Positions 10,719 through 41,329 of a stretch of 41,636 nt of DNA are shown piece by piece; the stretch's first letter is position 1; the number at the start of each line of letters is the position of its first letter. The position numbers and the translations under genes were made by a program. Below the pieces are notes generated by a model. The model was not told where the DNA came from. It did no database searches and saw nothing but the letters and a program-made list of their open reading frames with translations. The DNA is from Rhodocyclaceae bacterium. GTDB taxonomy: Bacteria; Pseudomonadota; Gammaproteobacteria; Burkholderiales; Rhodocyclaceae. The stretch is from NCBI GenBank assembly GCA_020445665.1, contig JAGRGD010000062.1:1-41636 (forward strand), given 5' to 3'.

Positions 10719-10737
10719 GAGAATGTTTCGCATTAGC
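10719..10737 (+). promoter_or_regulatory. Putative Fur box upstream of the imelysin operon
   Basis: The 19-mer starting GAGAATG and ending CATTAGC matches 13 of 19 positions of the classical Fur consensus GATAATGATAATCATTATC. It ends 51 bases before the imelysin ATG, a normal place for a Fur operator. Imelysin-type genes are known to be iron-regulated in several bacteria, which fits. Confidence 0.5.
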
Positions 10738-10788
10738 ATTCGCAATATTGAGATTTTCGCCTGCCACCCTTCCCCCGGAGTTTTCTCG

Positions 10789-11940: not shown

Positions 11941-11951
11941 GGGGCCAGCGT

Positions 11952-13384
<1,433 letters not shown>

Positions 13385-13388
<4 letters not shown>

Positions 13389-25530: not shown

Positions 25531-25554
25531 ACGGCGGCTTCGGCCGCCGTTTTT
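25531..25554 (+). terminator. Rho-independent terminator after the PEP-CTERM gene
   Basis: Perfect 8-bp stem ACGGCGGC-TTCG-GCCGCCGT with a stable TTCG loop followed by a T run. It lies 20 bases after the PEP-CTERM stop and also separates it from the convergent RND gene. Confidence 0.92.
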
Positions 25555-25585: not shown

Positions 25586-27925
25586 TCAGTGGGTGTCGAC
25601 CACGAATCGCGGCTGGAAGATGCGCACCACAGCAGGCATCAGGAACAGCGAGCAGGCCGCCGAGATCGACAGCCAGACGGCGATCAGCACGCCCATCTCG
25701 GCCTGCAGGCGCAGCGACGAGAGGGTCCATAGCATCACCCCGACGACCAGCGTGGCGGCGGTGATCAGCACGCCGCGGCCGGCGCTGAAGAGCGACTCGC
25801 GGATCGCCTCGTCCAGGGTCGTGCCGCCCCGGTGCAGGGCTTCGCGGATGCCGTCCACGATGTAGAAGGTGTAATCGACGCCCAGGCCGATGCCGAGCGC
25901 GACCACCGGCAGCGTGTTGATGTTCATGCCGATGCCCTTCCAGGCCATGTAGCTGAAGGTCAGGGTGTTGGAGAGCATCACCGGGATCATGAAGAAGATG
26001 CCGGCCGAGAGGCTGCGGTAGGTCACCGCGCAGCACACCACCACCACCAGCAGCCCCAGCGCGATGGCCTCGATCTGGCCGGCGAGGATCACCTCGTTGG
26101 CCGCCGCGAGCACGCCGATCAGCCCGCCGGCGAGCAGGATCTCGCCGCCGGGAAGCGGGTTGTCGTCCACGTAGTCCTTGATCCGCGCCACCGCGCTGCG
26201 GATCGTCTCGCCCTTGTGGTCGCGGAAGTAGAAGGTCACCGCGCCGTTCTTCGCCTCCGGGTCCACGAAGCGGTTGATGTCGCCCGGGTCGGCGCCCGAT
26301 ACCAGCAGGTGGAGCAGCTCGCCGTTGTGGATCGCGTCGCCCCCCAGCTCCTGGTAGCGCGGGTTGCCCTCGCGGATCACCCGGTTCACGTTGGGCAGCA
26401 CGTCGGCCAGCGAGAGGGAGCCGCCGATCTCCGGCAGCGCCGTCATGGTCCGCTGCAGGCCGTCCATGGCACCCAGCACGTCGGGCGCCTTGATACCGCC
26501 GTAGGCCTCGGTGGAGAACACCACGAACATCCGGTCGGCGCCCTGGAAGCGGGCATTCACCGCGGCCGCGTCCTGGTTGTAGGTGGCGTCGGGCCACAGG
26601 ATCGGCGAGCCCGGGTTCTCGTCGCCGACCTTCAGGTTCAGGGCGTAGAGGCCCGATGCGAGGAAGATTGCGCCGACCACCGCCACCAGCGGCCCGGCCG
26701 CGCGGGAGGTGACCAGCCGGGCGGCAAAGGCCAGCACCCGGTCGAACAGCGGCATGACGTCGATGGGGTGGATCGCCCGCCGCACCGGCCGCTGCCAGGA
26801 CAGCAGCGGCGGCATCGTCACCAGCACGCCGATGACCAGGGTCGAGATCCAGATCGTGCCGACCACCGCGATGCTCTGGATCAGCGGGATCGGGGTCAGG
26901 TACACCACCAGCACGCAGCCGGCGTCAGCCACCACCGACAGCAGGCTCGGCTTGAAGAGGTTGAGAAAGCTGATGCGTGCCGCGTCCCGCGCCGAGGTCG
27001 TGCCCCGATCCAGTTCGGCGTCGAAGCGGGAGATGAGCTGCACCGAGTTGGAGATGGCGCGGCCGGTGATCAGGAAGGCCACGACGATGATCAGCGGGTC
27101 CAGGTGATAGCCGAGGGCGCGGGCGAAGAACAGCGCCCAGGCGCCGCTGATCAGGCCGGCCAGCAGCGGCAGAAACGTGCCGTAGCCGCTGCGGTTGATC
27201 AGGCACAGCAGCGCCGCGAGGGCGACGATGGTGGTCAGGAAGATGCCCAGGGTCTCGTCGAGGAAGTGGTCCACCCAGCCGTAGAGGATCGGCTCACCGA
27301 CCACCCGCACTCGCACCCCGTCGCCCCGCACCGAATCGGCGATGGCGTTGATCTCGCGGAACACGGTCGGGTAGTCGATCAGGTGATCGTAGAAGTCCAC
27401 GGTGACCTGGGTCGCCATCAGGTCCGGCGAGACCAGCACACCGTAGATCAGCGGGTTCTGCAGCACCGACTGACGCAGCGCGGCGAGCTCGGCCGGGCTG
27501 TCGGGCACCTCCGGATACATCACCGGCCGGTTCTCGATTCCCTCGGTCGAGGCCCGCACCTCCTTGGCCTTGCGCGAGGCCAGCGAATTGATCTGGAACG
27601 GGTCCACCGCCGAGACCGTGCGCAGCGCCTCGGTGACCCGCTTCAGCCGGGCCAGCACGTCGTGGCGGAAGATGTCCCCCTCATCCACCTCGAGCATGAT
27701 GCTGACCACGTTGGAGCCACCGAAGCTCTCCTTGAAGCGCTCATTGACCTGGACGTAGGCGTGATCGCGCGGCAGCAGGTCCACGAACACCGTGCGGATC
27801 GGGATCTGGGCGGCGTAGGCGAGCATCGCAAGACTGGCCGCCAACACGACGCCGACCACGCCAAGCCGGTGCGCGATGAGCCAGTCCACGCCGCGGCACA
27901 GGGCGTGGTAGGTACGGTCCTTCAT
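25586..27925 (-). CDS. RND/MMPL-type exporter (COG1033)
   Basis: A 779-residue membrane protein with the RND layout: TM1 near 18-38, a large periplasmic loop (about 40-215), and a group of about five TM helices (220-390). TM7 lies near 420, with a second periplasmic loop and a second TM group (about 610-765). Landmarks include LINRSGYGTFLPLLAGLISGAW, FLITGRAISNSVQL and VALGIGLGVDYTFYIVDG. It belongs to the single-subunit MmpL/HpnN-like branch. No HlyD-type adaptor or outer membrane factor gene lies nearby. It starts 12 bases after the YCF48-like gene with GGAG before the ATG, and is the last gene of the carboxylase cluster. The likely substrate is hydrophobic, which is inferred. Confidence 0.9.
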   Translation of the reverse strand: MKDRTYHALCRGVDWLIAHRLGVVGVVLAASLAMLAYAAQIPIRTVFVDLLPRDHAYVQVNERFKESFGGSNVVSIMLEVDEGDIFRHDVLARLKRVTEALRTVSAVDPFQINSLASRKAKEVRASTEGIENRPVMYPEVPDSPAELAALRQSVLQNPLIYGVLVSPDLMATQVTVDFYDHLIDYPTVFREINAIADSVRGDGVRVRVVGEPILYGWVDHFLDETLGIFLTTIVALAALLCLINRSGYGTFLPLLAGLISGAWALFFARALGYHLDPLIIVVAFLITGRAISNSVQLISRFDAELDRGTTSARDAARISFLNLFKPSLLSVVADAGCVLVVYLTPIPLIQSIAVVGTIWISTLVIGVLVTMPPLLSWQRPVRRAIHPIDVMPLFDRVLAFAARLVTSRAAGPLVAVVGAIFLASGLYALNLKVGDENPGSPILWPDATYNQDAAAVNARFQGADRMFVVFSTEAYGGIKAPDVLGAMDGLQRTMTALPEIGGSLSLADVLPNVNRVIREGNPRYQELGGDAIHNGELLHLLVSGADPGDINRFVDPEAKNGAVTFYFRDHKGETIRSAVARIKDYVDDNPLPGGEILLAGGLIGVLAAANEVILAGQIEAIALGLLVVVVCCAVTYRSLSAGIFFMIPVMLSNTLTFSYMAWKGIGMNINTLPVVALGIGLGVDYTFYIVDGIREALHRGGTTLDEAIRESLFSAGRGVLITAATLVVGVMLWTLSSLRLQAEMGVLIAVWLSISAACSLFLMPAVVRIFQPRFVVDTH

Positions 27926-27937
27926 GTCGGTCTCCGC

Positions 27938-28918
27938 TCAGGTGCCGGGTGGGTGGATGGGCCCCAGGCGCTGGCCGGCGGCCACCCAGTGACCGTCGCT
28001 GCGGGCCAGCGAGGTACGCCAGGCGAAGTCGCTGTCGGTCGCCCGGCCGGCCTGCCAGCGGGTGCCGTCGGCCGAGCCGCGCAGGACCACGCCCCGGTTG
28101 CCGACGGCGACGAAGCCGCCCTCCCCCGGTTCGATCGAGAACAGGTGCTCGCGGGTGCCCGAGGGCACCGGCTGCCAGCTGGCGCCGCCGTCGGTGGAGC
28201 GCAGCACGTGGCCGTCGAGGCCGACCGCCAGGGCCAGGCCCGGGCCGAGCCACACCGAGGTCAGGCTCGACTCGACGCCGGAGGGCACGTCCTGCCACTG
28301 GCCGCCGCCGTCGGAGCGGGCGATGCGGCCGAACTCGCCTACCACCAGGATCCGCCCGTCGCGCACCGCGACGTCGTTCCAGCCCACGTCCTCGGCAGGC
28401 ATCATCTCCTGCCAGCTGTGGCCGTAGTCGGTGCTGGAGAGGACCATGCCGTACTCCCCGGTGGCCCACGCCACGCCCGGCTCGAATGCCCGCACCCGCA
28501 GGAACTTGCGCCCGTCCGCGGCCGGCGTGTCCACCGCCTCCCAGCGGGCGCCGCCGTCGGCGCTGACCAGCACCGCGCCGGCGTTGCCGACCGCCACCAG
28601 GCGCCGGGCGTCCCACGCCGCGATGCCCTGCAGGTGGGTGCGCAGGGGCGTGGGCTGGACGCGCCAGCGCGTTCCCCCATCGTCGCTCGTGACGACCTTG
28701 CCGAGCGCACCGACGGCCCAAAGCTGGCCGTCGATGGCGGTGACCCCGTAGAAGCGGTCCCGCGGGCCGACCGCGGGCTGCTCGACGGCCGGCAGTTCGG
28801 GCGCCACCTGGACGAAGAACGCGGCGTAGAGCAGCCCGCCGATGATCACGATCGGCGCCAGGCTGGCGAGCCAGCCGGCCAGGGGCCGCGCGGCCGGCCG
28901 GTGCTGTCCGATGGGCAT
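27938..28918 (-). CDS. YCF48-like beta-propeller protein with Asp-box repeats
   Basis: A 326-residue product with one N-terminal membrane helix (about 14-34, WLASLAPIVIIGGLLYAAFF). At least six Asp-box/BNR-like turns follow: VTSDDGGTRW, LVSADGGARW, LSSTDYGHSW, ARSDGGGQW, LRSTDGGASW and LRGSADGTRW. This is the pattern of YCF48/HCF136-type propellers. In non-photosynthetic bacteria such proteins are often next to an RND exporter, as here. A periplasmic, membrane-anchored partner of the exporter is the simplest idea. ATG 28916-28918 has a strong GGAGGAG ribosome binding site. The frame is open further upstream only as a shadow of the neighbour. Confidence 0.87.
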   Translation of the reverse strand: MPIGQHRPAARPLAGWLASLAPIVIIGGLLYAAFFVQVAPELPAVEQPAVGPRDRFYGVTAIDGQLWAVGALGKVVTSDDGGTRWRVQPTPLRTHLQGIAAWDARRLVAVGNAGAVLVSADGGARWEAVDTPAADGRKFLRVRAFEPGVAWATGEYGMVLSSTDYGHSWQEMMPAEDVGWNDVAVRDGRILVVGEFGRIARSDGGGQWQDVPSGVESSLTSVWLGPGLALAVGLDGHVLRSTDGGASWQPVPSGTREHLFSIEPGEGGFVAVGNRGVVLRGSADGTRWQAGRATDSDFAWRTSLARSDGHWVAAGQRLGPIHPPGT

Positions 28919-28931
28919 CCGCTCCTCCACC

Positions 28932-29738
28932 TCAGCGTCCGCCGCCGCGCAGGCCCGCGAGCCGCTCGAGTACCGCCTCGGGCTCGGCGTCGGCGGGAAC
29001 CTGCTGAAGGTAGAAGGCGGCCGGCGGCGGCGGGACGTCGAGGCGGTCCAGCCGGGCGCCCCGGGCGCCGTCGCGGTCGATGCACAGATCGTAGATGCCG
29101 TCGTCCCACCCGGCCGGGCCACCCAGCAGGGCGCAGTCCCAGCGGTAGTGGCGCGCCTGGTTCACCAGCGGCCCGTGGGGGTCCGCCCCGGCGCCGTCGG
29201 CGCCTGCGGCATCCACCAGCAGGCCGCCAGGGCCCGCGTCGGCCAGCGTGCGCAGGAAGTCCGCGACGTACATCGCGGCGCGCTCGCCCGCCTCCGGGTC
29301 GCTCGCGGGCGGCTCGCCCAGCGCCAGGGCGTGGGCCTCGGCCAGCCAGTGCGCCGCGTCGGGCAGCACCAGCACCACCGGCGCCCGCGACTGGCGCGCC
29401 AGGGCCGAGACCAGCTCGGCCAGGGCCGCGCGGGCGGGCCCGTCGGCCAGCATCGTCTTGAGGGCGTAGCCGCTGCGTCGCCTGGCCGCCATGGCGGTGC
29501 GCAGGCTGCCGTCGGCGGCGACCCGTGCGCGGAAGAAGGCACCCACCGGCAGCCACTGCACGTCCGAGCGCAGCAGGCGGTCGAGCTGGCCGAAGAAGGC
29601 GACGCAGGCGGTGGTGTCCCCCCAGGGCACCGCGCCGCCGCCGAGCAGGCGGGCGCGGGCGTAGTCGACTCCGTCGACCCAGACGCCATGCCCGCTCGTC
29701 TCCCGCGCGCCGTCCACCCGGTCGATCAGGGCGCCCAT
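28932..29738 (-). CDS. Putative fifth (epsilon-like) subunit of the ketone carboxylase
   Basis: A 268-residue, alanine-rich soluble protein without a signal peptide or recognised motif. It starts two bases after the beta-subunit stop and is followed closely by the YCF48-like gene. Its place and size compare with ApcE (34 kDa in Aromatoleum), the loosely bound subunit of acetophenone carboxylase. Visible segments are WVDGVDYARARLLGGGAVPWGDT, VVLVLPDAAHWLAEAHALAL and RHYRWDCALLGGPAGWDDGIYDLCIDRDG. Homology to ApcE is not certain from reading alone, and an unrelated accessory protein is the alternative. Confidence 0.6.
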   Translation of the reverse strand: MGALIDRVDGARETSGHGVWVDGVDYARARLLGGGAVPWGDTTACVAFFGQLDRLLRSDVQWLPVGAFFRARVAADGSLRTAMAARRRSGYALKTMLADGPARAALAELVSALARQSRAPVVLVLPDAAHWLAEAHALALGEPPASDPEAGERAAMYVADFLRTLADAGPGGLLVDAAGADGAGADPHGPLVNQARHYRWDCALLGGPAGWDDGIYDLCIDRDGARGARLDRLDVPPPPAAFYLQQVPADAEPEAVLERLAGLRGGGR

Positions 29739-29739
29739 C

Positions 29740-32016
29740 TCAGGCCCCCGCCTGGCGGCGCTTCAGTTCGGCGATCTCCGCCTCCAGCTCGGCGATCCGC
29801 AGGTCCTTCGGGTTGGGCATCATGATGCCGGCCAGCGTGTCGGCGTCGAGCTGGCGACGGGTCTCGCCCTGCCCCGCCCAGATCACCTTCGGGTCGTCCC
29901 AGCTGCCGTAGTACGGCAGGTCTTCCGGCGGCTCGGCGGTACACCAGTCGGCCACGAACTCGGCGTAGGGCCGGCCTCGGGCGAGGCGGGCCTTCCGCTC
30001 GGCATCCCGCGCCGCCGCCGTCGCGGCGGCATCGACGATCAGGGTCGCCTCGTCGAAGACCACGAAGTACAGCTCCCGCGCCAGGTCCGGCGACAGCAAC
30101 TCCTCTTCCACGTCCTTCATCACCAGCTCGGGATCGCGCTCTAGCACGTCGCCGTAACCGCCGCCCGAGCCCTGGCAGATCATGTAGACCTCGCCCTGGG
30201 CGGCCGGCTCGAAGGTCATGCCCATGTGGTAGGTGCCGTAGGTGGCGCCCTCGAGCGCCTGCTCGTTCATCAGCTCGACCATGTCGAAGCGGAACTGGCG
30301 CGGGTTGCTCTTGAGCACATCGAAGACATTCACGTCCTTGACCTTGGCGAGGGGATAGGCGGGCGAGCCGTAGCCACCGAACAGGCCGTAGGCGCTGGGG
30401 TGGAAGGAGCCGGTGCCGCCGGTCATGAAGCCCCACACGTCGCTGTCGCGGGCGGTGATCATCTGCTCGTAGCCGAGCCCGCCGCGATACTTGCCGAAGC
30501 CCATGCGGTCCTTCGACAGGTGCTGCGAGACGAGCCGCAGCACCGGCAGCTCCTCCTCGTTGAACTCCTGCTCGCCGGTGTCGCACATGTAGCCGAAGAT
30601 CGGCGACACCGCGTGCTCGCCGTCCCGGTCGAAGCGCGCCCCGCCGCCGTTGCCGTTGATGTCGGCGCAGAAGTTGCCGGTCACCTCCGAGTGCTGGGTG
30701 ATGCCGCCATAGACGAAGGTGAAGGGCTGGTTGAAGTGCGAGGCATACACCGAGGTGTAGCGCTTGGGCGCGCTGTAGAGGAACTTGGCCATCGCGTAGA
30801 TGGGCATGCTGAAGGACTTGAAGAGCGGCGTCAGGCTCATCGCGTTGGGCGCGTCGAAGGACGCGTCGAGCAGCGAGTTCTCGTCGGTCAGCACCTCGAT
30901 CGGCGAGAACACCGCCATGTTGTGGGGCAGGTCCGGCCAGATGTAGATCAGGTAGCTGGTCGCGAGGCAGGTCTTGAGCGAGGCCAGTGTGGTGTTGATC
31001 GAGCGGTTGGTGAATTCGGGGCACGAGCCGCGGCAGTCGAGGATCATCTTCTCGCCCTTGACGGTGACCGAGAAGTTCCACTTCATCAGGCAGTTCTCGC
31101 GCAGGGTGCCGTCGATGAAGGCCTGGACCCGCACGGTGCCGTCCGGCATCTCGCGGATGCGGCGCCGCACCTCGGCGTCCACGTCCTCGATGTTCTTGCG
31201 CAGGCAGCCGACGAAGGCGTCCTTGCCGTACTTGGCGATCACCGCCCGGATGCGCTCGATCAGCCGCACGCAGGCGTGCAGCTTGACCTTGATGTCCTCG
31301 TACTGGAGCTTGGGATCACGCACCGAGTTCTGCAGGTAGGTCAGCAGGTCGCGGCGGATCTGGAAATCCTCGACGATGCGGAAGGGGCTCATCTTCAGCC
31401 CCTCGTCCCACTTGCTCTCGGCCGCGGCCGGCATGCCGCCGGGCTCGCAGGCGCCGTTCTCGCCCTCGTGGATCGTGGACGACACCCAGCAGATCAGCTC
31501 GCCCTCGTGGAACACCGGCATGATCATGCTCTGGTCGGTGTTGTGGATGTTGCCGTAGCGGGAGTCGTTGTGGATGAAGCCGTCGCCCTCCGACAGACCC
31601 ACGGTGGGGTCCTTGGCCCAGTACTTGGCGATGAACTTGATCGGGTAGTGGCAGATGCCGGAGAACACCACCACGCCCTTCGGGCTGATCGCCGACAGGT
31701 CGCCCCGCGCGGTGTAGATGCCGGTGACCAGGTCGCCCCACTTGGCGCCCGGCGCGGTGCCCATCTGCTCGACCATGTCGTAGGTCTCGTCGAGCGCCGC
31801 GTAGAGCCGCCCGCGCACCAGGTTCAGGGCGTGGGGGTCGGGCTCGCCCGACAGCACCCGCTCCTCGTCCCGGCTGCGCGGCCCGTGGGCGTGGTTGCGC
31901 ATGATCTCCCGGTCCGGCGCCAGGAACAGCGTGTTGTCGCGCAGGAAGTCATCCACCAGCGCGCGCTCGTCGTCGCTCAGCGACTCCGCCGCGATGTCGA
32001 TCGTCTGTTGCGTCAT
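29740..32016 (-). CDS. HyuB-like beta subunit of an ATP-dependent ketone carboxylase
   Basis: The 758-residue product (about 85 kDa) is of the hydantoinase B/acetone carboxylase alpha/Apc beta type. Landmarks are GVVVFSGICHYPIKFIAKYW near 124, MIMPVFHEGELICWVSSTIHEGENGA near 175, a DCRGSCPEFTNRSINT region near 330, and glycine-rich segments near the C-terminus (QGSGGGYGDVLERDPE). The last 25 residues form a short coiled coil (LRIAELEAEIAELKRR). In the Apc structure this subunit carries the carboxylation site of the complex. ATG 32016 is preceded by GGGGAG. Its size equals that of the 87-kDa Apc subunit and differs from simple hydantoinase B (about 550-600 residues). Confidence 0.85.
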   Translation of the reverse strand: MTQQTIDIAAESLSDDERALVDDFLRDNTLFLAPDREIMRNHAHGPRSRDEERVLSGEPDPHALNLVRGRLYAALDETYDMVEQMGTAPGAKWGDLVTGIYTARGDLSAISPKGVVVFSGICHYPIKFIAKYWAKDPTVGLSEGDGFIHNDSRYGNIHNTDQSMIMPVFHEGELICWVSSTIHEGENGACEPGGMPAAAESKWDEGLKMSPFRIVEDFQIRRDLLTYLQNSVRDPKLQYEDIKVKLHACVRLIERIRAVIAKYGKDAFVGCLRKNIEDVDAEVRRRIREMPDGTVRVQAFIDGTLRENCLMKWNFSVTVKGEKMILDCRGSCPEFTNRSINTTLASLKTCLATSYLIYIWPDLPHNMAVFSPIEVLTDENSLLDASFDAPNAMSLTPLFKSFSMPIYAMAKFLYSAPKRYTSVYASHFNQPFTFVYGGITQHSEVTGNFCADINGNGGGARFDRDGEHAVSPIFGYMCDTGEQEFNEEELPVLRLVSQHLSKDRMGFGKYRGGLGYEQMITARDSDVWGFMTGGTGSFHPSAYGLFGGYGSPAYPLAKVKDVNVFDVLKSNPRQFRFDMVELMNEQALEGATYGTYHMGMTFEPAAQGEVYMICQGSGGGYGDVLERDPELVMKDVEEELLSPDLARELYFVVFDEATLIVDAAATAAARDAERKARLARGRPYAEFVADWCTAEPPEDLPYYGSWDDPKVIWAGQGETRRQLDADTLAGIMMPNPKDLRIAELEAEIAELKRRQAGA

Positions 32017-32044
32017 CGTCTCCCCCAGGGAATCTCGTTGTCCG

Positions 32045-34189
32045 TCAGGCCGCGGCCCGCTCGCCGCGCAGGAACCACACCGCGCCCTGCCCGGCTGCGC
32101 GGTACTGCCAGCCGGGCTCCACCAGGTAGGTGGTGAAGCGGGTCGTGACCACGGCCGGGCCGTTTATGGTGGTGCCGGGCCGCAGCGCGGCCTCGTCGTA
32201 GATCGGTGTCGCCAGCGCGCCTTCGACGCCGACGAAATGGCAGGCGCGCTCGCCGACCGCCTCGGGCGGCGGCAGGCGCGCGTCGCCGGGCAGGATGTCG
32301 CTGAAGTCCACCGTGTCGAGGGAGACCGAGGCCCGCACCCGGATGGTGTTGATGCGCACGCCGGCCTCGGGGGCCTGGCTGCCCTCGCCGAAGCGCTGGC
32401 CGTAGCTGCGGTGGAACTGCTCCATCAGGCGCAGCACGTCCGAGACCGACTCCAGCCTCGACAGCTCGGTGGCGACCGCCGTCTCGACCCGCTGGTTGCC
32501 GTAGCGCATGTCGAGCTCCAGGCGGTACTCGATGGCCGACTCGGGCATGCCCTGGCGCAGCAGGTCTTCGCGGCCGCGCGCCTCGAGGGCCTCGACGATG
32601 CCGTTGAAGCGGCGGAAGTCGGAAAACACCGCCTGGGCCACCGAATCGAACAGCACCAGGTAGGTGGACATCTCGTGGATGTGCATCTGGTGCATGTTGC
32701 CGGCGCCGCAGGCCGAGAACACCGACGAGAACGGCGGCGCCAGGATCGCGTCGATGTCGAGGTTTCGCGCCACGCCGCAGGCATGCAGCGGGCCGTTGCC
32801 GCCATAGGCGAGCATCGTGAAATCGCGCGGGTCATAGCCCCGCGCCCGCAGCTCGGCAGCGATCCCGTTGGCCATGTTGGCATCGACGGTCTGCTTGACC
32901 AGCCGCGCGGCATCCACCGGATCCACGTCCAGCTCGTCGCACAGGCCATCCTCAAAGGCCATCGTCGCCCGTCTGGCATTCAAGCGGATGTGGCCGTCGG
33001 CGTAGTTGTCCGGGTCGAGGTAGCCGAGCATCAGGTCGGCGTCGGTCACGGTCGGGTTGAGGCCGCCCCGGTCGTAGCAGGCGGGACCCGGGTCGGAGCC
33101 GGCACTCTCGGGGCCGATCCGCACCGTGTCGTACATGCGGTCGAAGCTGGCGATGGAGCCGCCGCCGGCGCCCAGCGTCACCAGGTGCACCATCGGCACG
33201 CTGACCATCCAGCGCTCGATCACCGGGTTGAAGTCGTAGTGCTTGACGCCCCCCTCGACGACGATGCCGATGTCGAAGCTGGTGCCGCCCATGTCGGTCG
33301 CCACCACGTTGCCGAGCAGCCCCTGGGCCGCCAGGTGCTCCGACGCGGCGATGCCCGAGACCGGCCCCGAGTGCACCGTCTGCAGCGCGTCGGTGGAGTT
33401 GAGCTGGGCCATCCCGCCGGAGTTGTGCACCACCAGCATCGGGCGACGATAGCCCGCATTGCGGAGGTTGAGCTCCAGGCTGCCGAGGCCGTGGTACATC
33501 ACCTTGTGCAGGAAGGCGTCGATGATCGCCGACATGCCGCGCACGTACTCGCCCTTGCGGCCCGCCACCTGGTGCGAGAGCACCATCGGGATCGCGCCGA
33601 GCATGTGGGCCGGGTAGTCCTCCAGGAAGACCTCGCGCACCCGCAGCTCGTGGGACGGGTTGACCACGCTGTTGGTCAGCAGCACCACCAGCGCCTCGGC
33701 GCCGGCATCCACCAGGCTGCGCACCTGGCAGCGCAGGTCGTCCTCGTCGAGGCCCATCACCACCGCGCCCTTGTAGTCGATGCGCTCGCGCACCTGGCGG
33801 ATCATCGGGATCGGCACCAGCGGGTCCGGGCGGTCGGCGTTGGGGATGTCCATCTGCGCGACCGGGTCGAGGCCCTCGCCGTAGCCCCGGCCGCGGGCAA
33901 TCGGCACCGTGCTCTTGAAGCCGGCGGTCACCAGCAGGCCCACCTTCGGCCCCTTGCGCTCGATCAGCGCGTTGGTGCCCAGGGTGGTGGCGTAGCGCAC
34001 CGAATCGACCTCGGAGAGCAGCGCCTCGCGACCCACCGCGAGCTCCTGGCAGGCGGTGTCGAGGGCCTCGTTGAAGCCCAGCGCGAGGTTGTGGTGCGTG
34101 GTCAGCGCCTTGCGCTGCACGCTGCGGTCGCCCCACACGACGAAGCAGTCGGTGAAGGTCCCGCCGATATCTACGGCAACCCGTTTCAT
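32045..34189 (-). CDS. HyuA-like ASKHA subunit (alpha') of an ATP-dependent ketone carboxylase
   Basis: The 714-residue product (about 75 kDa) has the ASKHA ATP-binding module. Phosphate-1 motif VDIGGTFTD lies at residues 6-14, phosphate-2 TDMGGTSFDIG near 297, and the C-terminal MLAYGGNGPLHACG near 460. The hydantoinase A landmarks TTLGTNALIERKGPKVGLLVT (about 68-88) and VHNSGGMAQL are present. In acetophenone carboxylase two such subunits are thought to phosphorylate the ketone enolate and bicarbonate respectively. Which one this is cannot be told by eye. It follows the gamma gene by 19 bases. Confidence 0.87.
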   Translation of the reverse strand: MKRVAVDIGGTFTDCFVVWGDRSVQRKALTTHHNLALGFNEALDTACQELAVGREALLSEVDSVRYATTLGTNALIERKGPKVGLLVTAGFKSTVPIARGRGYGEGLDPVAQMDIPNADRPDPLVPIPMIRQVRERIDYKGAVVMGLDEDDLRCQVRSLVDAGAEALVVLLTNSVVNPSHELRVREVFLEDYPAHMLGAIPMVLSHQVAGRKGEYVRGMSAIIDAFLHKVMYHGLGSLELNLRNAGYRRPMLVVHNSGGMAQLNSTDALQTVHSGPVSGIAASEHLAAQGLLGNVVATDMGGTSFDIGIVVEGGVKHYDFNPVIERWMVSVPMVHLVTLGAGGGSIASFDRMYDTVRIGPESAGSDPGPACYDRGGLNPTVTDADLMLGYLDPDNYADGHIRLNARRATMAFEDGLCDELDVDPVDAARLVKQTVDANMANGIAAELRARGYDPRDFTMLAYGGNGPLHACGVARNLDIDAILAPPFSSVFSACGAGNMHQMHIHEMSTYLVLFDSVAQAVFSDFRRFNGIVEALEARGREDLLRQGMPESAIEYRLELDMRYGNQRVETAVATELSRLESVSDVLRLMEQFHRSYGQRFGEGSQAPEAGVRINTIRVRASVSLDTVDFSDILPGDARLPPPEAVGERACHFVGVEGALATPIYDEAALRPGTTINGPAVVTTRFTTYLVEPGWQYRAAGQGAVWFLRGERAAA

Positions 34190-34208
34190 GCGGTTCGGCT
34201 CCGGTCGG

Positions 34209-34622
34209 TCAATGGGAATGGCCGTGACAGTGGCGCTTGAGGGGCGGCTCGTCGGCCGGTGCCGGCGCCGGCTCGTGCATCGGCGGCCGGTCCTTCCACT
34301 GGGCCTTGAGGGCGTCGATGTCGAAGTCCATGTCGTGCAGCGGCGGATGCCCCGGGACGGTGTATTCGGTCTCCACCAGGGTGCCGCAGCCCGGACAGTA
34401 GAACTCCAGGATCCGGCACCAGCGGGGGTGCGGCGAGAAGGTCAGGCGGTACTTGGCCGGATCGAGCAGGGGCCGGTGGATCTCCCGCGGGTCGCGGTCA
34501 TACACCAGCAGGCCCTCCTTGTAGTTGCCCCGCGCCGGGCCGATCTCGTGATCGCAGCGGCGGCACTGCCACAGCTCGCGCGCCAGGTCGATGGCGAGGT
34601 ATTCGGTCATGAAGACTTTCAT
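34209..34622 (-). CDS. Small zinc-ribbon-like gamma subunit of the ketone carboxylase
   Basis: The 137-residue product (about 15.5 kDa) equals the 15-kDa Apc gamma subunit in size and resembles acetone carboxylase gamma. Two CxxC pairs, WQCRRCDHEIG near 19 and FYCPGCGTLVETEY near 76, would bind a zinc ion. The conserved GNYKEGLLVYDRDPREIHRPL and the C-terminal PLHDMDFDID region are typical of this family. The C-terminus ends in a His-rich tail (HCHGHSH). ATG 34622 has GGAG six bases before it. It lies between the MDR reductase and the alpha' gene on the same strand. Confidence 0.85.
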   Translation of the reverse strand: MKVFMTEYLAIDLARELWQCRRCDHEIGPARGNYKEGLLVYDRDPREIHRPLLDPAKYRLTFSPHPRWCRILEFYCPGCGTLVETEYTVPGHPPLHDMDFDIDALKAQWKDRPPMHEPAPAPADEPPLKRHCHGHSH

Positions 34623-34663
34623 GGGTTTCTCCGCGCTGGGTGTCTGGGTCCGGGGGGTGGCCG

Positions 34664-35665
34664 TCAGCCGACCCGCACCACGACCTTGCCGTGGTGGTTG
34701 CCGTCGAACAGGGTGTTGATGGCGTCAGGGATGCGGGCCAGGCCGTCGAAGGCATGGACCCGGTACTGGATGCGCCCGGCCGCGGCCCACTCGAGCAGCG
34801 CCCGGTAGGCGGCGGGACCGTCGTGGCGGGCGTCGAGGATGACGAAGCCCTCCATCCGCAGCCGCCGCGTCACCACATTCAGCAGGTTGCGGGGGGCCGC
34901 CTGGTCGTCGCGGTTGTAGGCGCTGATCATGCCGCAGGCGACGATCCGGCCGAACAGCGCCATGTGCTCGAGGGCGGCCTCGAGGATGGCGCCGCCGACG
35001 TTGTCGAAATAGACGTCGATGCTGTCCGGGCACAGTGCCCCGAGCCGCGCCGCGACGTCCTCGCTGCGATAGTCGATGGCCGCGTCGATGCCGAGCACCT
35101 CGGTGAGGTGGCGGCACTTGTCGGCGCCGCCGGCGATGCCGATGACGCGGCAGCCCAGCAGCTTGCCCACCTGCACCGCCAGCGAGCCCACCGCGCCGGC
35201 GGCGGCCGACACCACCAGGGTCTCGCCGGCCTTCAGCTGGCCGATCTCGGTCAGCCCGCACCAGGCGGTCATGCCGATGTGGCCGAGCAGGCCGAAGTGG
35301 GCGTCGAGGGGCAGCGGGCCGATGTCCGGCAGGGCCTGCAGCGACGCCGCCGGGACGGTCGCCCGGGTGCGGCAGCCGGTCAGGCCGAGGACGAGGGTGC
35401 CGACGGGCAGCGCGTCGCTGCGCGAGGCCTCGACCTCACCGATCGCGATGGCCCGCATCACGTCGCCCGGGGCGAGGCGGTCCATGTAGGTGCGCGCGTC
35501 GTCGAGCCACACCCGCATCGTCGGGTCGATGGAGATCAGCCGGCTGGCCACGGTCACTTCGCCGTCGGCGGGCGCGGCCACCGGCGCGCTCACCACCTCG
35601 AAGGTGTCGTCGCCGATCCGCCCCTGCGGGAACTGCCGCAGCACCAGGGTTTCGCTCGTTGTCAT
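34664..35665 (-). CDS. MDR-superfamily NADPH-dependent reductase (CurA/leukotriene B4 dehydrogenase-like)
   Basis: A 333-residue medium-chain dehydrogenase/reductase. A Rossmann dinucleotide motif is present as VVSAAAGAVGSLAVQVGKLLG near 153, followed by GIAGGADKCRHL, IDYRSED and DVYFDNVGG. Zinc ligands of alcohol dehydrogenases are absent, placing it with curcumin/enone reductases of the zinc-independent branch. It reduces C=C bonds of alpha,beta-unsaturated ketones in known cases. It starts at the alpha stop with one base between, and its place inside the carboxylase operon suggests that it prepares or finishes the ketone substrate. That is inference. Confidence 0.88.
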   Translation of the reverse strand: MTTSETLVLRQFPQGRIGDDTFEVVSAPVAAPADGEVTVASRLISIDPTMRVWLDDARTYMDRLAPGDVMRAIAIGEVEASRSDALPVGTLVLGLTGCRTRATVPAASLQALPDIGPLPLDAHFGLLGHIGMTAWCGLTEIGQLKAGETLVVSAAAGAVGSLAVQVGKLLGCRVIGIAGGADKCRHLTEVLGIDAAIDYRSEDVAARLGALCPDSIDVYFDNVGGAILEAALEHMALFGRIVACGMISAYNRDDQAAPRNLLNVVTRRLRMEGFVILDARHDGPAAYRALLEWAAAGRIQYRVHAFDGLARIPDAINTLFDGNHHGKVVVRVG

Positions 35666-35666
35666 G

Positions 35667-37592
35667 TCAGGACTCCCGGACGAGTTCGATGTCGCCACCG
35701 GCCGTGAAGCGGTAGCGCCAGCCGGCCGGGACGCGGCAGGTGAAGAAGTCCTCCTCGAGCACCGCCGGACCGGTTCCGGTGGCGCCGGGCGGGTTGTCCG
35801 CCAGACGCACCAGGGGCACCGGCCGGGCCTCGCCCACCGCATCCCGAAGCATGCGCTCGCCGGCGGTGATGGGCGACACCTCCGCGGGCGTGCCGGTGCT
35901 GCCGAAGCGCGCGTGGCGGATCGGGCGGGTGGCGCTGAGGGTCGCGCTGCAGCGGGCGTCGGGGTCGAGCCCGGCAGGCAGGCGCCCGTCCGGCAGGGCC
36001 GTCTCGTGCTCCTGCCCGTCTGCCTGGCGCACGAGGCCAGGTGCCAGCTGGCAATCGTCGAGGGAGAAACCCTCGGCGAACATGTCGCGGCGGGCCTGCT
36101 CGGTGAGGCCCGCGATGGCCGCGTCGTAGGCCGCCTGGCTGGCCTCCGGCAGGGCCACTTCGTAATGGTGGGCGATGTCCGAGAACGACAGCCCGTAGGC
36201 CGAGAACACGGCGGCCAGGCGTGGCACCAGCACCCGCCCGACGCCCAGCGCCTCGGCCACGGTGCAGATCGCCAGCGGTCCGCCGCCGCCGAAGGCGGCC
36301 AGCACCGTGTCGGGGCCGATGTCACAGTGCTCCCGGATGCCGGCCGCGACCCGCTCGACCCAGGCCGCCTCCATCGCCGCCAGGGCCCGGCCGACGCTCA
36401 TGTCCAGCGGCCGGGCGACGTTCTCGAGCACCGCCGCGCGGGCCCGCTCCACGTCCAGCGCCAGGTCGCCGCCGAAGAAGGCCTCGGGGTCGAGCACCCC
36501 CATCAGCAGGAACACATCGGTAATCGTTGCGTGCTTGCCGCCGAGGCCGAAGCAGGCCGGCCCGGGCTGGGCGCCGACGCTCTCCGGTCCGACCCGGATC
36601 TCGCCGCCCTGGGCACGGATCACCGAGCCGCCGCCGACGCCGACGCTGTGGATGTCCACCAGCGGGAAGGACACCCGCACGCCCTCGACCCGGCCACGCC
36701 GTTCGCTCTCGATGTGCCCGCCCCGGGTCGCGCCGATGTCGGTCGTGGTGCCGCCCACGTCCACCGACACCAGATGGCCGACACCGTAGTGGGCGGCCAG
36801 CGCCCGCGCGCCCTCCATGCCGCCGCGCGGGCCGGAGCTGTAGGTCTTCAGCGCGATGGTCTTGGCCACCCGGGCCGAGTCGCCGTCGTTGCGGAAGATC
36901 AGCAGCGGGCTGCGGAAGCGCGCGTCGCGCAGCTTGTGCTCGGCGTGGTAGAGGAAGGTCTCCATCGCCGGATGCAGGAAGGCATTGAGCAGGGCCGACC
37001 AGATGCGGCGGCCGTCGTCGGCGTCGCCGGCGATCTGGTGCGAGAACAGCACCGGCACCGCGCCCAGCAGGTGGGGCGGAAACTTGGCCAGCACGATGCG
37101 GCGCAGGCGTGCCTCGGCCTCGGCGCCGGCCTCGCCAGCCATGCCGACCACGATGCGGTTGGCGCCACCGGCCGTCAGGGCGTTGACCGCCGCGACCAGC
37201 CGGCCGTCCAGGTCGCCGTCGTCGGCCGGATCCACCGCCGCCACGCGCTCGCCCACCAGCGCCGAGAAGAGCTCGCGGGTCGACGCGGAATCCTGTAGCG
37301 CCCCTGCCCCGGCGGCGTCCGCGAGGATCAGGCCGACGCGAGGCCCCTTGCGCTCGACCAGGGCGTTGGTGCCCTGGGTCGTCGAGTAGCGGATGTAGTC
37401 CGTGTCGCGCAGCAGGCCGACCACGTCCTCTTTCCCGTAGATCGCCTGGCTGACCTTGCGGAGCCCCTCGAAGAAGCACTTCGACAGGTCGTACGGCGTG
37501 GTCAGGGTCTTGGTCCGGACCACGTCGTCGCCGTCCACCACGACGATGTCGGTCAGGGTCCCGCCGTTGTCGATGTTGATCAGTTTGCCCAC
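35667..37592 (-). CDS. ASKHA subunit (alpha) of an ATP-dependent ketone carboxylase
   Basis: The 641-residue product (about 67 kDa) is HyuA-like, matching the 70-kDa ApcA in size and first position. The start is GTG 37590-37592, since the phosphate-1 motif NIDNGGTLTD begins at residue 5. Upstream ATG frames add non-homologous residues. Phosphate-2 VDVGGTTTDIGA lies near 275, and the C-terminal AAFGGGGPLAI near 430. The first motif has Asn where the alpha' subunit has Ile (DNGGT versus DIGGT), so the two kinase-like subunits differ in their sites. It is the first gene of the cluster, and the divergent LAL regulator starts 285 bases away. Confidence 0.87.
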   Translation of the reverse strand: MGKLINIDNGGTLTDIVVVDGDDVVRTKTLTTPYDLSKCFFEGLRKVSQAIYGKEDVVGLLRDTDYIRYSTTQGTNALVERKGPRVGLILADAAGAGALQDSASTRELFSALVGERVAAVDPADDGDLDGRLVAAVNALTAGGANRIVVGMAGEAGAEAEARLRRIVLAKFPPHLLGAVPVLFSHQIAGDADDGRRIWSALLNAFLHPAMETFLYHAEHKLRDARFRSPLLIFRNDGDSARVAKTIALKTYSSGPRGGMEGARALAAHYGVGHLVSVDVGGTTTDIGATRGGHIESERRGRVEGVRVSFPLVDIHSVGVGGGSVIRAQGGEIRVGPESVGAQPGPACFGLGGKHATITDVFLLMGVLDPEAFFGGDLALDVERARAAVLENVARPLDMSVGRALAAMEAAWVERVAAGIREHCDIGPDTVLAAFGGGGPLAICTVAEALGVGRVLVPRLAAVFSAYGLSFSDIAHHYEVALPEASQAAYDAAIAGLTEQARRDMFAEGFSLDDCQLAPGLVRQADGQEHETALPDGRLPAGLDPDARCSATLSATRPIRHARFGSTGTPAEVSPITAGERMLRDAVGEARPVPLVRLADNPPGATGTGPAVLEEDFFTCRVPAGWRYRFTAGGDIELVRES

Positions 37593-37877: not shown

Positions 37878-40550
37878 GTGGGATCACCCGACACCGGCGC
37901 TGCCATCGGCACCCCCGAAGGCATTCGCCTGACCCGAGCCAAGCTGACGCCGCCGAGCCGCGTCGCGCACGCCATCGACCGCGCCGCGCCGCGCCTCTCC
38001 GACGGCGTGCCCCGGGGCACCCGCCTGGTGCTGTGCAACGCGCCGGCGGGCTTCGGCAAGACCAGCGTGATGCTGCAGTGGCGCGAGCAGCTCGAGCAGG
38101 CCGGCATGGCCACCGCGTGGCTCACCTTCGACCCGCAGGACAACGACCTCTCGCGCTTCCTCACCTACCTGGCGGCGGCCCTCGGCGACATCGGCCGCGC
38201 CAGCGACGTGCCGCCCCTGCCCGCCTCGCTGTTCGATTCGCAGATCGTCCCGTCCGGCGTGGTGCTCGACCTGCTGGAGCGGCTGTCGGGCTGCGGCCAG
38301 CCCTTCGCCCTCTTCCTCGACGACTACGAGTGCGTGAGCAACGAGGCCATCCACGCCATCGTGCGCCAGCTCATCGACCACCAGCCACCGGGCTGCCGGC
38401 TCGTGATCGGCAGCCGCAGCACGCCGCCACTGGGGCTCGGGCGCCTGCGGGTGCGGGAGCAGCTGGTGGAGCTGGGCATCGAGCAGCTGCGCTTCAGCCT
38501 CGCCGAGACCACCACCTACCTCAACACCCGGCGCGAGCTGCCGGTGCCGGAGCGGGACATCCAGGCCCTGCACCAGTGCACCGAGGGCTGGGCCACGGCC
38601 CTGCAGCTGGCGACGCTGTCGCTCACCGGTGCGCGCAACCCGGGCGAGCTGCTGGCCGGGGTGTCCGGCAGCAACGCCGGCATCGCCGACTACCTGGCCG
38701 AGGACGTCCTCTCCCGCCTCGAGGCCGGGGTGCGGGATTTCCTGCTCGACGTCTGCGTGCTCGATACCCTCACCGTGCCCCTGTGCGAGGCAGTCAGCGG
38801 ACGACCCGACTGCGCCGGCCAGCTCGAGGCGATCGAGCGGGCCAACCTGTTCCTGATCCCCCTCGACGCCGAGCGCACCACCTGGCGCTTCCACAACCTG
38901 TTTGCCGACTTCCTGCGCGCCCAGCTCGAGCGGCGCCAGCCCGGCCGCTCGACCGAGCTGCACCGGCGCGCGGCCCACGCCTACCTGGCCCAGAACCGGG
39001 TGGTGCCGGCGGTGGAGCACACCCTGGCCGCCGGCGACACGCGGATGGCCGCCGAGCTGCTCGACGCCCACGCCGAGACCCTGCTCTACGCGGGGCGCGT
39101 GGACACCCTCGCCCGCTGGGTCGAGACCCTGCCGCCCGACTGCCTCGACGACCTGCCCCACCTGCGCCTGTCCTACACCTGGGCGCTGACCTTCCTCCAC
39201 CGTTATCAGGAGGCCCGCTCGGTCCTCGACGAGTTCCGCCACGCCGGCGAGCGCCAGCTCACGGCGCGGGAGAAGGACGAGGTGCTGACCCTCGGCCCGG
39301 CCATCCAGATCTTCTCGGACCGCATCGACGAGTGCCAGCACGCGGCCACCCACAACCTGCCGCGGCTGTCGGGCAAGGGGGACTTCGCCCACGGCGCGCT
39401 GTGCAACATCGCCGCCTTCTGCCTCGGCACCGAGTCCCGCTTCGACGAGGCCGCCGAGCTGCTGGCCACCGCCAAGCGCCTGTTCCTGCGCGCCGGCTCC
39501 ACCTACGGATGGACCTACTCCCAGTGCCTGGAGGGCTCGATGGAGTTCGCCCAGGGCCGCAGCGCCGGCGCCCAGGCCATCTACGCCAACGCCTTCCAGC
39601 GCGCCACCGGCGGTACCCGCTACTCCAGCGCCAGCGCCGTCGCGGCGGTGCACCTGGCGGAGCTGCTGTATCTGAACGAAGACCCCAGCGGCGCCGAGGA
39701 GCTGCTCCACGACTACCTGCCGATCATCGAGCAGACCGGCCTGCCGGACCACATCATCGTCGCCAACCGCATCCTCGCCCGCCTGTCCCTCGCGCGCCAC
39801 GACGTCGAGGCCGCCCAGCGCCGCCTCAACGACATGGAGTACCTCGGCATCGCCCGCGAGGCGCCGCGCATCGTCGCCACCTCACGCATCGAGCGGGCCT
39901 GGCTGGCGATGGCCATCGGCGACCTGGAGCAGGCCAGCCGCCTGCTCGAACAGGCCCGCCGGCAGGCCCACTGGGCCGGCTTCGGCCACCGCATCTACCA
40001 CGGCAATGAGACTGAAGACCTCGAGCTGCACCGGGCGCGCCTCGCCCTGCGCCTGCACCAGCCCCGCGACGCGGCCGACATCCTCGCCGCCCAGCTGACC
40101 GCCCTCGGCGGTACCCGGCGGCACCGCCGGCGCCTGCTGCTGCAGATGCTCGAGGCCCGCGCCCTGCTCGACCTGGACCAGCACGCCCGGGCCCAGCAGC
40201 AGTTCGCCACCGCGTGGGAGGAGGCCCAGGCCCTCGGCCTCGCCGGCCAGATCCAGGACGACCGCGCCCAGCTCCAGCCGCTGATGGCACGCCTCACGCC
40301 CGGCACCCACACCGGCCCGACGGAACTGCCGCCGCTGCCCAGCCGCAGTGACGACCCGGATGCCCTCACCGAGCGCGAACTGCAGGTGCTTCGCCTGGTG
40401 GCCGAGGGGCTCTCCAACCGGGCCATGGCCGAGACGCTGTTCGTGTCGGAAGCCACCGTCAAGACCCACCTGCGCAGCATCAACGGCAAGCTCGGCGCCC
40501 ACAGCCGCACCCAGGCGGTGGCGCTGGCAAGGGCCAAGCGCATCCTCTGA
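37878..40550 (+). CDS. Large ATP-binding LuxR (LAL/MalT-like) transcriptional activator
   Basis: An 890-residue regulator. The N-terminal STAND NTPase part has Walker A as NAPAGFGKTSVML near 55 and Walker B-like FALFLDDYE near 147. A long helical TPR-like middle follows. The C-terminal LuxR HTH reads LTERELQVLRLVAEGLSNR, then LFVSEATVKTHLRSI and KLGAHSRTQAVALA (about 825-885). The family acts as ligand- and ATP-dependent activators, with MalT as the model. GTG 37878 has GGAGGAG at a spacing of about 9. Its divergent place next to the alpha gene makes it the likely regulator of the carboxylase cluster. Related LAL proteins control PQQ-alcohol, alkane and steroid pathways in other proteobacteria. 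Confidence 0.92.
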   Translation: MGSPDTGAAIGTPEGIRLTRAKLTPPSRVAHAIDRAAPRLSDGVPRGTRLVLCNAPAGFGKTSVMLQWREQLEQAGMATAWLTFDPQDNDLSRFLTYLAAALGDIGRASDVPPLPASLFDSQIVPSGVVLDLLERLSGCGQPFALFLDDYECVSNEAIHAIVRQLIDHQPPGCRLVIGSRSTPPLGLGRLRVREQLVELGIEQLRFSLAETTTYLNTRRELPVPERDIQALHQCTEGWATALQLATLSLTGARNPGELLAGVSGSNAGIADYLAEDVLSRLEAGVRDFLLDVCVLDTLTVPLCEAVSGRPDCAGQLEAIERANLFLIPLDAERTTWRFHNLFADFLRAQLERRQPGRSTELHRRAAHAYLAQNRVVPAVEHTLAAGDTRMAAELLDAHAETLLYAGRVDTLARWVETLPPDCLDDLPHLRLSYTWALTFLHRYQEARSVLDEFRHAGERQLTAREKDEVLTLGPAIQIFSDRIDECQHAATHNLPRLSGKGDFAHGALCNIAAFCLGTESRFDEAAELLATAKRLFLRAGSTYGWTYSQCLEGSMEFAQGRSAGAQAIYANAFQRATGGTRYSSASAVAAVHLAELLYLNEDPSGAEELLHDYLPIIEQTGLPDHIIVANRILARLSLARHDVEAAQRRLNDMEYLGIAREAPRIVATSRIERAWLAMAIGDLEQASRLLEQARRQAHWAGFGHRIYHGNETEDLELHRARLALRLHQPRDAADILAAQLTALGGTRRHRRRLLLQMLEARALLDLDQHARAQQQFATAWEEAQALGLAGQIQDDRAQLQPLMARLTPGTHTGPTELPPLPSRSDDPDALTERELQVLRLVAEGLSNRAMAETLFVSEATVKTHLRSINGKLGAHSRTQAVALARAKRIL

Positions 40551-40603: not shown

Positions 40604-41170
40604 TCACCGCATGCCGAAGTGCTCGTCGTAACGGGCGATGTAGTCGGTCGTGGCAAGCGGTGCATGGCACGCCCGGCAGGCCTTGAAGTCCACCTTCGCC
40701 GCGCTGCGGCCATCGGCCTCCCAGGCGCCATACACCCAGTCCCCGTTGTCGAGGGTGCCCGCCGGCTGCGCGGCACCCCAGCCGGCGCCCTTCTGCATCA
40801 CGAAGATCTTCGACAGGCTGCCTTTCACGAGCCGGCCCTGCGCATCTGTGAGCGGCTTGTCGCCCGGCCCCTTGCGCGCCGCATGAATTTCCATCACCGC
40901 GATGGTGCCTGACGGGAAGGCCTCGCCCTTCGCTGCGCGCATGCCCTCCGCGTTGATGTAGATCTCCCGCACCTGCCCTGCGGCCGCCTTGTCCACCGTG
41001 CCGACGAACCGCGGCCAGCTGCGGTAGCCCTCGGGCACCGGGACCTCACCGTCCACGGGTTTGGCGGCCATCGTGTCGCCCTTCTCAGGCATGCCACCAC
41101 AAGCGCCGAGCACCAGCCCGGCGGCCAGGGCCGCAAGGCCCGCCTTGTTCGTCATGGGGATCATCCGCAT
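40604..41170 (-). CDS. Cytochrome P460-family lipoprotein
   Basis: A 188-residue product with a lipoprotein signal: hydrophobic helix then lipobox LGAC at about residue 24. The mature part has VPEGYRSWPRFVGTVDK, VREIYINAEGMRA, GTIAVMEIHAARKG and KIFVMQKGAGWG, the features of the cytochrome P460 family. A single CxxCH (CRACHAP) lies near 167. P460 proteins and the related c'-beta group handle hydroxylamine or NO in the periplasm. A cross-linking lysine cannot be verified without alignment. ATG 41170 follows GAGGAG, and the M at residue 6 is an alternative. Confidence 0.87.
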   Translation of the reverse strand: MRMIPMTNKAGLAALAAGLVLGACGGMPEKGDTMAAKPVDGEVPVPEGYRSWPRFVGTVDKAAAGQVREIYINAEGMRAAKGEAFPSGTIAVMEIHAARKGPGDKPLTDAQGRLVKGSLSKIFVMQKGAGWGAAQPAGTLDNGDWVYGAWEADGRSAAKVDFKACRACHAPLATTDYIARYDEHFGMR

Positions 41171-41329
41171 CTGTCGCTCCTCAGGGTTGGCTTGTCGCGT
41201 GGGGTCTACGTGACGACGGGCCCTGCAGATGCATTGGCTTGCGAAATGCACCCAGCCGCGAGCGGCTCCGGGAGCAGAGCGAACACCACTGGGGCGGCGG
41301 CAGTGACCACTCACCTGGCAATCAGTCAG

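Follow-up and report, generated by a model that had tools for sequence, protein, structure and literature searches.

A probable ketone carboxylase operon of acetophenone carboxylase architecture with an embedded reductase gene in a Rhodocyclaceae bacterium

Known ketone carboxylases and the operon in the window

The closest described counterpart of the gene cluster reported here is the acetophenone carboxylase (Apc) of Aromatoleum aromaticum EbN1 (PDB 5l9w and 9fou), in which apcA encodes the alpha' subunit (70 kDa) and apcC the alpha subunit (80 kDa). According to the accessible parts of the structure paper, it was at that time the single characterized enzyme of the Apc branch, and the kinase roles of alpha and alpha' were considered tentative there, too (PMC5214803). 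Acetone carboxylase (PDB 5svb and 5m45) differs from Apc in having one kinase subunit, a longer gamma subunit and no epsilon subunit. Two other groups of known proteins are relevant to the cluster, namely the AmeABCD proteins that the accessible text of one study describes in the monoterpene metabolism of Castellaniella defragrans (PMC6394551), and the medium-chain dehydrogenases/reductases (MDR) of the CurA and leukotriene B4 12-hydroxydehydrogenase types. Here we describe an operon from a Rhodocyclaceae bacterium (assembly GCA_020445665.1, contig JAGRGD010000062.1) that probably encodes an ATP-dependent ketone carboxylase of Apc architecture. It lies on the minus strand (37592-25586) of the 41,636-nucleotide stretch analyzed, hereafter the window, and consists of eight tightly packed genes, with intergenic gaps of 1, 41, 19, 28, 1, 13 and 12 nt in order:

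35667..37592, minus strand: alpha' subunit, ApcA-like, 641 aa, GTG start (phmmer against solved structures, ATP motifs)
34664..35665, minus strand: MDR reductase, 333 aa, of the ADH_N_2/CurA-like NADPH enone reductase family (Pfam, NCBIfam, closest solved structure 4b7c)
34209..34622, minus strand: gamma subunit, ApcB-like, 137 aa (PF08882, zinc-site cysteines)
32045..34189, minus strand: alpha subunit, ApcC-like, 714 aa, ASKHA kinase (phmmer, RERIDYKG fingerprint, pocket)
29740..32016, minus strand: beta subunit, ApcD-like, 758 aa (phmmer, D/H/D/H metal site, tree)
28932..29738, minus strand: epsilon subunit, ApcE-like, 268 aa, URO-D-like TIM barrel (Foldseek fold match)
27938..28918, minus strand: AmeC-like YCF48/BNR protein, 326 aa from the ATG at 28918 (PSII_BNR)
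25586..27925, minus strand: AmeD-like RND/MMPL inner-membrane transporter, HAE3-like, 779 aa (MMPL, TIGR00921)

The subunit set and the order alpha', gamma, alpha, beta, epsilon are those of EbN1 Apc, with one additional gene, encoding the reductase, between alpha' and gamma and starting 1 nt after alpha'. A first-pass annotation of this DNA had placed two ASKHA kinases, the MDR, gamma, beta and a fifth protein in one minus-strand run, and the open reading frames and Pfam matches (Hydantoinase_A twice, Hydantoinase_B, Acetone_carb_G and ADH_N_2) agree with it. However, that annotation ended the run at 28932, whereas the operon continues to 25586 with the YCF48-like gene, which starts 13 nt past epsilon, and the MMPL/HAE3-like gene 12 nt after that. 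Its names for alpha and alpha' were also swapped relative to those in the accessible parts of the Apc paper (PMC5214803).

Each of the four core subunits gave its top score against the solved acetophenone carboxylase. In phmmer comparisons, beta scored 268.7 bits with ApcD of 5l9w, 141.6 with acetone carboxylase and 104.6 and 102.1 with hydantoinases, and alpha scored 524.6 bits with ApcC, 279 and 269.1 with hydantoinases and 263.6 with acetone carboxylase; the best match of alpha' was ApcA (288.5 bits), followed by ApcC (212.2). Gamma matched the Acetone_carb_G family (PF08882) with 128.7 bits (cut-off 21), and its score was 108.3 bits against the gamma subunit of 5l9w vs. 43.1 against that of the acetone carboxylase 5svb. 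For epsilon, nothing convincing was found by sequence in Pfam or the PDB, and the fold search alone gave a match, with 9fou (ApcE) taking Foldseek ranks 1-3 (E 9.5e-5 to 1.6e-4). Therefore, although homologues of its three subunits are present, the complex is not of the acetone carboxylase type, since alpha' and epsilon are encoded as well, gamma is 137 aa long rather than 168, and the acetone carboxylase scores are lower for each subunit compared.

In the careful beta tree (32 rows, two of them typed references), the window protein falls inside a 22-row clade with support of 100/100, and this clade is split (100/98) from five rows on the hydantoinase side. A quick tree with three references, covering 60 rows of the two kinase subunits, likewise gives separate alpha and alpha' clades; rows entered the trees with at least 350 matched residues for alpha and 300 for beta, and one partial alpha row was omitted. 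The enzyme thus belongs to a separate, well-supported subfamily of the acetophenone carboxylase family, with members in Proteobacteria, Rhodococcus and Sulfobacillus. The earlier proposal of an Apc-like carboxylase rather than a hydantoinase is borne out by the beta tree, by the gamma scores, which relate this subunit to Apc gamma, and by the ApcE-like fold of epsilon; neither beta nor the two kinase subunits group with hydantoinases, and the alpha, alpha' and beta clades are separate. Hydantoinases and oxoprolinases do not share the subunit set, which exceeds two subunits, and an identity as hydantoinase or lactamase was rejected on the subunit set together with the trees.

Catalytic motifs and the ketone pocket

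The ASKHA ATP motifs are kept in both alpha and alpha', as they are in EbN1 Apc. In alpha' they read DNGGTLTD, DVGGTTTD and SVGAQPGP. The first-pass annotation had pointed to a phosphate-1 difference between the two kinases (DNGGT vs. DIGGT), which is real but is not a peculiarity of this locus: DNGGT is shared by 21/22 subfamily alpha' rows and is therefore a subfamily signature, while DTGGT is found in the haloarchaeal outlier L029 and in EbN1. For the same reason, the idea that DNGGT indicates an inactive kinase was abandoned. The R/KERiDsxG fingerprint is present in alpha, as in EbN1, in the form RERIDYKG, and by eye there is no ERID in alpha'. All four zinc-site cysteines of Apc gamma are kept in the window gamma (Cys20, Cys23, Cys76 and Cys79).

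Beta keeps a D/H/D/H metal site, the counterpart of the manganese ligands Glu89, His150, Asp153 and His175 given for acetone carboxylase in the accessible parts of its description (PMC5543143); in the acetone carboxylase of locus L070, Glu stands in place of the first Asp. The same D/H/D/H is also present in the hydantoinase rows of the alignment, and it was therefore dropped as proof of a carboxylase. The authors of the Apc structure paper did not find a substrate-site consensus separating acetophenone carboxylase, acetone carboxylase and hydantoinase (PMC5214803).

The ketone pocket was compared at the seven residues named for EbN1 alpha, L81, F281, N282, P285, I333, Q344 and T345. Here the window alpha reads T-V-H-P-I-H-L and EbN1 reads L-F-N-P-I-Q-T, so that five of the seven positions differ. 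The signature T-V/I-H-P-I-H-L is shared by 21 of 23 subfamily alpha rows, with one deviating position in L017 and three in L029, and it is identical whether or not a locus has the reductase. The MDR gene hence marks no special substrate pocket. The first-pass annotation had treated the reductase as a cue to the ketone; the gene is indeed there, but with the pocket unchanged in relatives that lack it, it says little about which ketone the enzyme accommodates.

Further differences from EbN1 Apc are that beta, at 758 aa, exceeds the solved ApcD (684 aa) by 74 aa, that AmeC/D-type genes follow the carboxylase genes, and that no CoA ligase gene is adjacent. In addition, the scores stay below all four NCBIfam equivalog cut-offs (ApcA 341 bits against 1250, ApcB 127.9 against 250, ApcC 562.8 against 1500 and ApcD 316.8 against 1500). 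On the basis of these cut-offs and the pocket, acetophenone carboxylase proper was rejected, and the earlier suggestion of a ketone other than acetophenone is supported by the same two observations; the substrate is probably not acetophenone.

Reductase, transport genes and possible partner genes

The reductase belongs to the general ADH_N_2 family (Pfam, 97.9 bits), and resembles the CurA and leukotriene B4 12-hydroxydehydrogenase types in its domain make-up, its best NCBIfam matches and the family of its PDB match, the closest solved structure being 4b7c, a "probable oxidoreductase" (286 bits). Unlike those enzymes, it scores below both NCBIfam cut-offs (302.6 bits against 440 for CurA, NF058644, and 197.3 against 579.85 for the second) and is encoded within a carboxylase operon. 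An enone reductase in this position might supply the ketone substrate. The closest relative of the operon, locus L002 from a Rhodocyclaceae metagenome-assembled genome (G399), is the only other locus seen with the reductase in the same place, and its proteins are 84% (alpha'), 86% (MDR), 94% (gamma), 95% (alpha), 97% (beta), 68% (epsilon), 70% (AmeC) and 92% (AmeD) identical to those of the window. Same-family MDR genes are also found near the carboxylase in two other lineages, Zavarzinia (37%) and Solimonas aquatica (L012, 41%).

The AmeC-like protein, scanned on a longer frame from 29122, scored 40.3 bits against PSII_BNR (cut-off 27), and the AmeD-like protein scored 91 bits against MMPL (cut-off 20.5) and 109 bits against HAE3 (TIGR00921), the latter below the cut-off of 351.9. 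As in C. defragrans, a YCF48-type and an HAE3-type gene stand side by side, and AmeA and AmeB types are present on another contig of the genome, C239. However, DUF1302, DUF1329, YCF48-like and HAE3 genes were not found in one cassette as in AmeABCD, the last two being in the window and the first two on C239, and the likeness was judged by domain type only. The window AmeD is 92% identical to that of L002 and 60-61% identical to those of L042 and L070, and where AmeD homologues are at least 60% identical, a ketone carboxylase lies alongside in four of four loci (window, L002, L042 and L070). L070, from Aromatoleum toluclasticum (G405), is a true acetone carboxylase operon (1157 bits to 5m45), in which acetone carboxylase is followed in one run by AmeC, AmeD, AmeA and AmeB types, together with an AACS-like (acetoacetate-CoA ligase) gene, a CoA transferase and a Fis-type activator. 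The transporter is a weak pointer to a ketone pathway and does not single out any one ketone.

Consistent with the first-pass annotation, which had reported neither a CoA ligase nor a phenylethanol dehydrogenase nearby, tblastn with AMP-ligase, AACS, CoA-transferase, SDR and zinc-dependent alcohol dehydrogenase references gave no match within the 41.6 kb of the window (E up to 1e-12). This picture is modified by the rest of the genome (4.79 Mb, 341 contigs, 93.65% complete; no second Acetone_carb_G match), which holds a candidate CoA ligase and thiolases. They lie on C239 in a run of genes for a reductase, a VanA-type Rieske oxygenase, DUF1302 (AmeA), DUF1329 (AmeB), an LTP-type thiolase, an AACS-family protein (800.2 bits, cut-off 520.9) and a thiolase, with a divergent XylR-type (XylR_N/V4R) regulator. 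In another genome of the same order (G132), Apc, AmeC, AmeD, AmeA, AmeB, an LTP-type thiolase and a ligase are contiguous, and the C239 AmeA is 49% identical to its AmeA and 45% and 43% identical to the two of A. toluclasticum, with no further matches among 16 genomes. In Zavarzinia (G801, taken as the genome of L003), Apc, AACS and LuxR genes precede an LTP-type thiolase that shares 65% identity with the C239 one, the MDR and an SDR, and in L012 an LTP-type thiolase (36%), the MDR and a LuxR gene lie near the carboxylase. In the AACS tree, the C239 AACS groups with the Apc-adjacent AACS of L014 (91/93), outside the group of the AACS on contig C5 of the same genome (91/90); the remainder of that side lacks resolution, and both the C209 AACS and an AACS without Apc fall there. 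We regard the link between C239 and the operon as tentative.

Neighbor genes were counted in 23 subfamily loci, without L002 (a near twin), L011 and L019 (short), L110 (on a contig as long as that of L003) and L020-L023 (outside the subfamily), against 16 control loci that were centered on and chosen for AmeD and are therefore not a random sample; the comparisons are uncorrected for the number of gene families. An AACS, AMP ligase or CoA transferase gene occurs near the carboxylase in 13/23 loci vs. 1/16 controls, rising to 14/23 with the ligase of L042 itself as reference, and some loci count partly by construction (L008 and L026 among the 13, also L042 among the 14), since several of the references came from counted loci: L006 supplied the SDR, L008 the AMP ligase, L004 the CobW, L010 the Fis and L026 the CoA transferase. 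Counted separately, there are five C239-type AACS, seven AMP ligases and two CoA transferases. LuxR genes were near the carboxylase in 6/23 loci (controls 0/16), SDR genes in 7/23 (1/16) and LTP-type thiolase genes in 5/23 (0/16). The C239-type Rieske gene was found in none of the 23 loci within the stretches covered, and was thus rejected as a general partner.

Two other contigs of interest are C209 (L047), where a BKACE beta-keto acid cleavage enzyme (214 bits), a partial AACS that also falls outside the C5 group, a TauD dioxygenase and a DUF1302 gene are found together, possibly as a second beta-keto acid route and another product outlet, and C74 (L069), which encodes a second Rieske oxygenase of the VanA type, sharing 67% identity with the C239 enzyme, along with its own reductase and XylR-type regulator.

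Among genomes of the order, 2 of 399 had a beta match (E up to 1e-100), and among those of the phylum, 4 of 398 (E up to 1e-150), the source genome included in both, and a gamma-query search gave 22 loci, of which L020-L023 are outside the subfamily, with plasmid records adding five. A similar cluster in Rhodococcus ruber Chol-4 is listed, in the accessible parts of its report, as a putative anaerobic acetophenone carboxylase (PMC6498646). Among the relatives, L016 is the subfamily locus of Azotobacter vinelandii; L012 and L013 have gamma, alpha and beta with no adjoining alpha', L012 with a molybdopterin oxidoreductase gene in that region; L014 (Solimonas terrae) carries two neighboring carboxylase gene copies with the AACS between them; and an Apc-like cluster of Haloterrigena has a URO-D-family gene between alpha' and gamma (L088:2380-3348), perhaps its epsilon.

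Outside the operon, two features of the window may bear on its expression:

37878..40550, plus strand: divergent MalT-type LuxR regulator, 890 aa (GerE, TPR_MalT)
25531..25550, no strand assigned: hairpin, possible terminator, between the operon end and a convergent PEP-CTERM gene (weak terminator scan)

Judged by its position, the LuxR gene is likely the regulator of the operon; its product is 92% identical to the one in L002, while the LuxR/MalT-type proteins of the six other loci are 27-33% identical. Terminator scanning gave six sites vs. 2.6 expected in the region, which is weak support for the hairpin. The convergent PEP-CTERM protein gene is at 24776-25510, and a cytochrome P460 gene lies near the LuxR gene (40604-41314), as does a homologue in L002. 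Farther away, a stretch of low G+C (3000-8500; about 0.47-0.56 vs. about 0.70) with DUF4209, BP74_N and Schlafen AlbA_2 genes is probably an acquired island, and imelysin (Peptidase_M75), di-haem oxidoreductase and DUF1513 genes stand together on the plus strand (10654-15482), a cassette which we take to be iron-uptake-like.

Proposed route and candidate substrates

Taken together, we hypothesize that the MDR, as suggested by its family, would reduce an alpha,beta-unsaturated ketone to the saturated ketone. By analogy with Apc, alpha would phosphorylate this ketone to an enol phosphate and alpha' would phosphorylate bicarbonate to carboxyphosphate, and the two would be joined within the complex, with release of a beta-keto acid; epsilon binding would close and activate the core complex. 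The beta-keto acid might then be activated by the AACS-family enzyme and cleaved by thiolase, both encoded on C239, while the AmeC/D-like proteins, together with the AmeA/B-type proteins of C239, may handle a hydrophobic substrate at the envelope. As substrate we favor an aliphatic or alicyclic ketone larger than acetone, because of the LTP-type thiolases and the MDR and Ame genes; the ligase and CoA-transferase neighbors of the relatives, partners also known from acetone carboxylase loci, fit small ketones. For isophorone, no published precedent for carboxylation was found in the literature search.

Several observations weigh against this scheme. The in-operon reductase was seen in just two loci (window and L002), and an MDR near the carboxylase was counted in 1/23 loci vs. 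0/16 controls, with the Zavarzinia gene falling outside the stretch counted, which is not above background and leaves an enrichment of MDR near Apc unsupported. AmeD homologues of 47-54% identity are without a nearby carboxylase in eight of eight loci (L071 and L090-L096, several of these stretches ending at contig ends). Ame genes are therefore not specific to carboxylases, and the Ame type was rejected as a carboxylase marker. In the beta tree, the Apc-like rows are split from the single acetone carboxylase row at just 84/69, and a long-branch warning applies to the hydantoinase and acetone carboxylase rows. In genome G399 (completeness unstated), to which the closest relative belongs, neither the Rieske (E up to 1e-30) nor the AmeA of C239 (E up to 1e-20) has a match, and there are one weak DUF1302-family gene (38.7 bits) and an AACS of just 46% identity. 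The literature search, largely without subscription papers, found no assayed activity for any subfamily member. Finally, AACS, CoA-transferase and acetone-carboxylase-type neighbors fit acetone or butanone equally well.

This last point leads to a reading that we consider possible, if rather unlikely, in which all members of the subfamily would be acetone/butanone carboxylases of an alternative type, with the reductase and Ame genes as side additions. AACS-type genes stand beside Apc in L003, L005, L006, L014 and L030 (53-58% to the C239 AACS), that of L003 exceeding the TIGR01217 cut-off (802.8 vs. 520.9 bits); L010 and L026 have a CoA transferase and a sigma-54/Fis-type activator; the same AmeD type (60%) is in the true acetone carboxylase operon of A. 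toluclasticum; the pocket is common to unrelated bacteria; and no second carboxylase gamma is encoded in the genome of the window. However, C239 and several loci carry LTP-type rather than plain acetoacetyl-CoA thiolases, the pocket is unlike that of acetone carboxylase, too (L-I-V-P-M-A-M in L070), and acetone carboxylases lack the second kinase and epsilon. An aryl ketone carboxylase, related to acetophenone degradation and fed by the VanA-type Rieske oxygenase under the XylR-type regulator, appears improbable: the VanA_C Rieske gene does share one C239 run with its reductase, AACS, thiolases and divergent regulator, but Phe281 and four other EbN1 pocket residues are changed, the NCBIfam Apc cut-offs are not reached, and the Rieske gene was not found in the other clade loci within the stretches covered and is without a match in the genome of the closest relative.

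Even less probable is an ATP-dependent amidohydrolase acting on a lactam, hydantoin or oxoproline with extra subunits. Alpha does score 414 bits with caprolactamase CapA (cut-off 1000), HyuA/HyuB relatives make up the general family, and hydantoinases carry the beta metal site as well, but gamma, alpha' and epsilon are all present, the trees place the window apart from hydantoinases, and the neighbors in relatives are acid-CoA ligases and thiolases. Crotonyl-CoA carboxylase/reductase, an MDR enzyme, offers a precedent for reductive carboxylation. The MDR could in principle make an enolate from an enone that the Apc-type complex would capture, as enol phosphate or directly by CO2 from carboxyphosphate, giving reductive alpha-carboxylation without release of free ketone; among the readings discussed here, we give this one the least credence.

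We therefore return to a ketone carboxylase of Apc architecture acting on a larger aliphatic or alicyclic ketone as the reading we prefer. One shared pocket signature, differing from that of the acetophenone enzyme, extends across the subfamily, including the culturable Azotobacter and Solimonas, and makes the substrate directly testable, while the operon reductase and the C239 partner genes hint at the first ketones to try.

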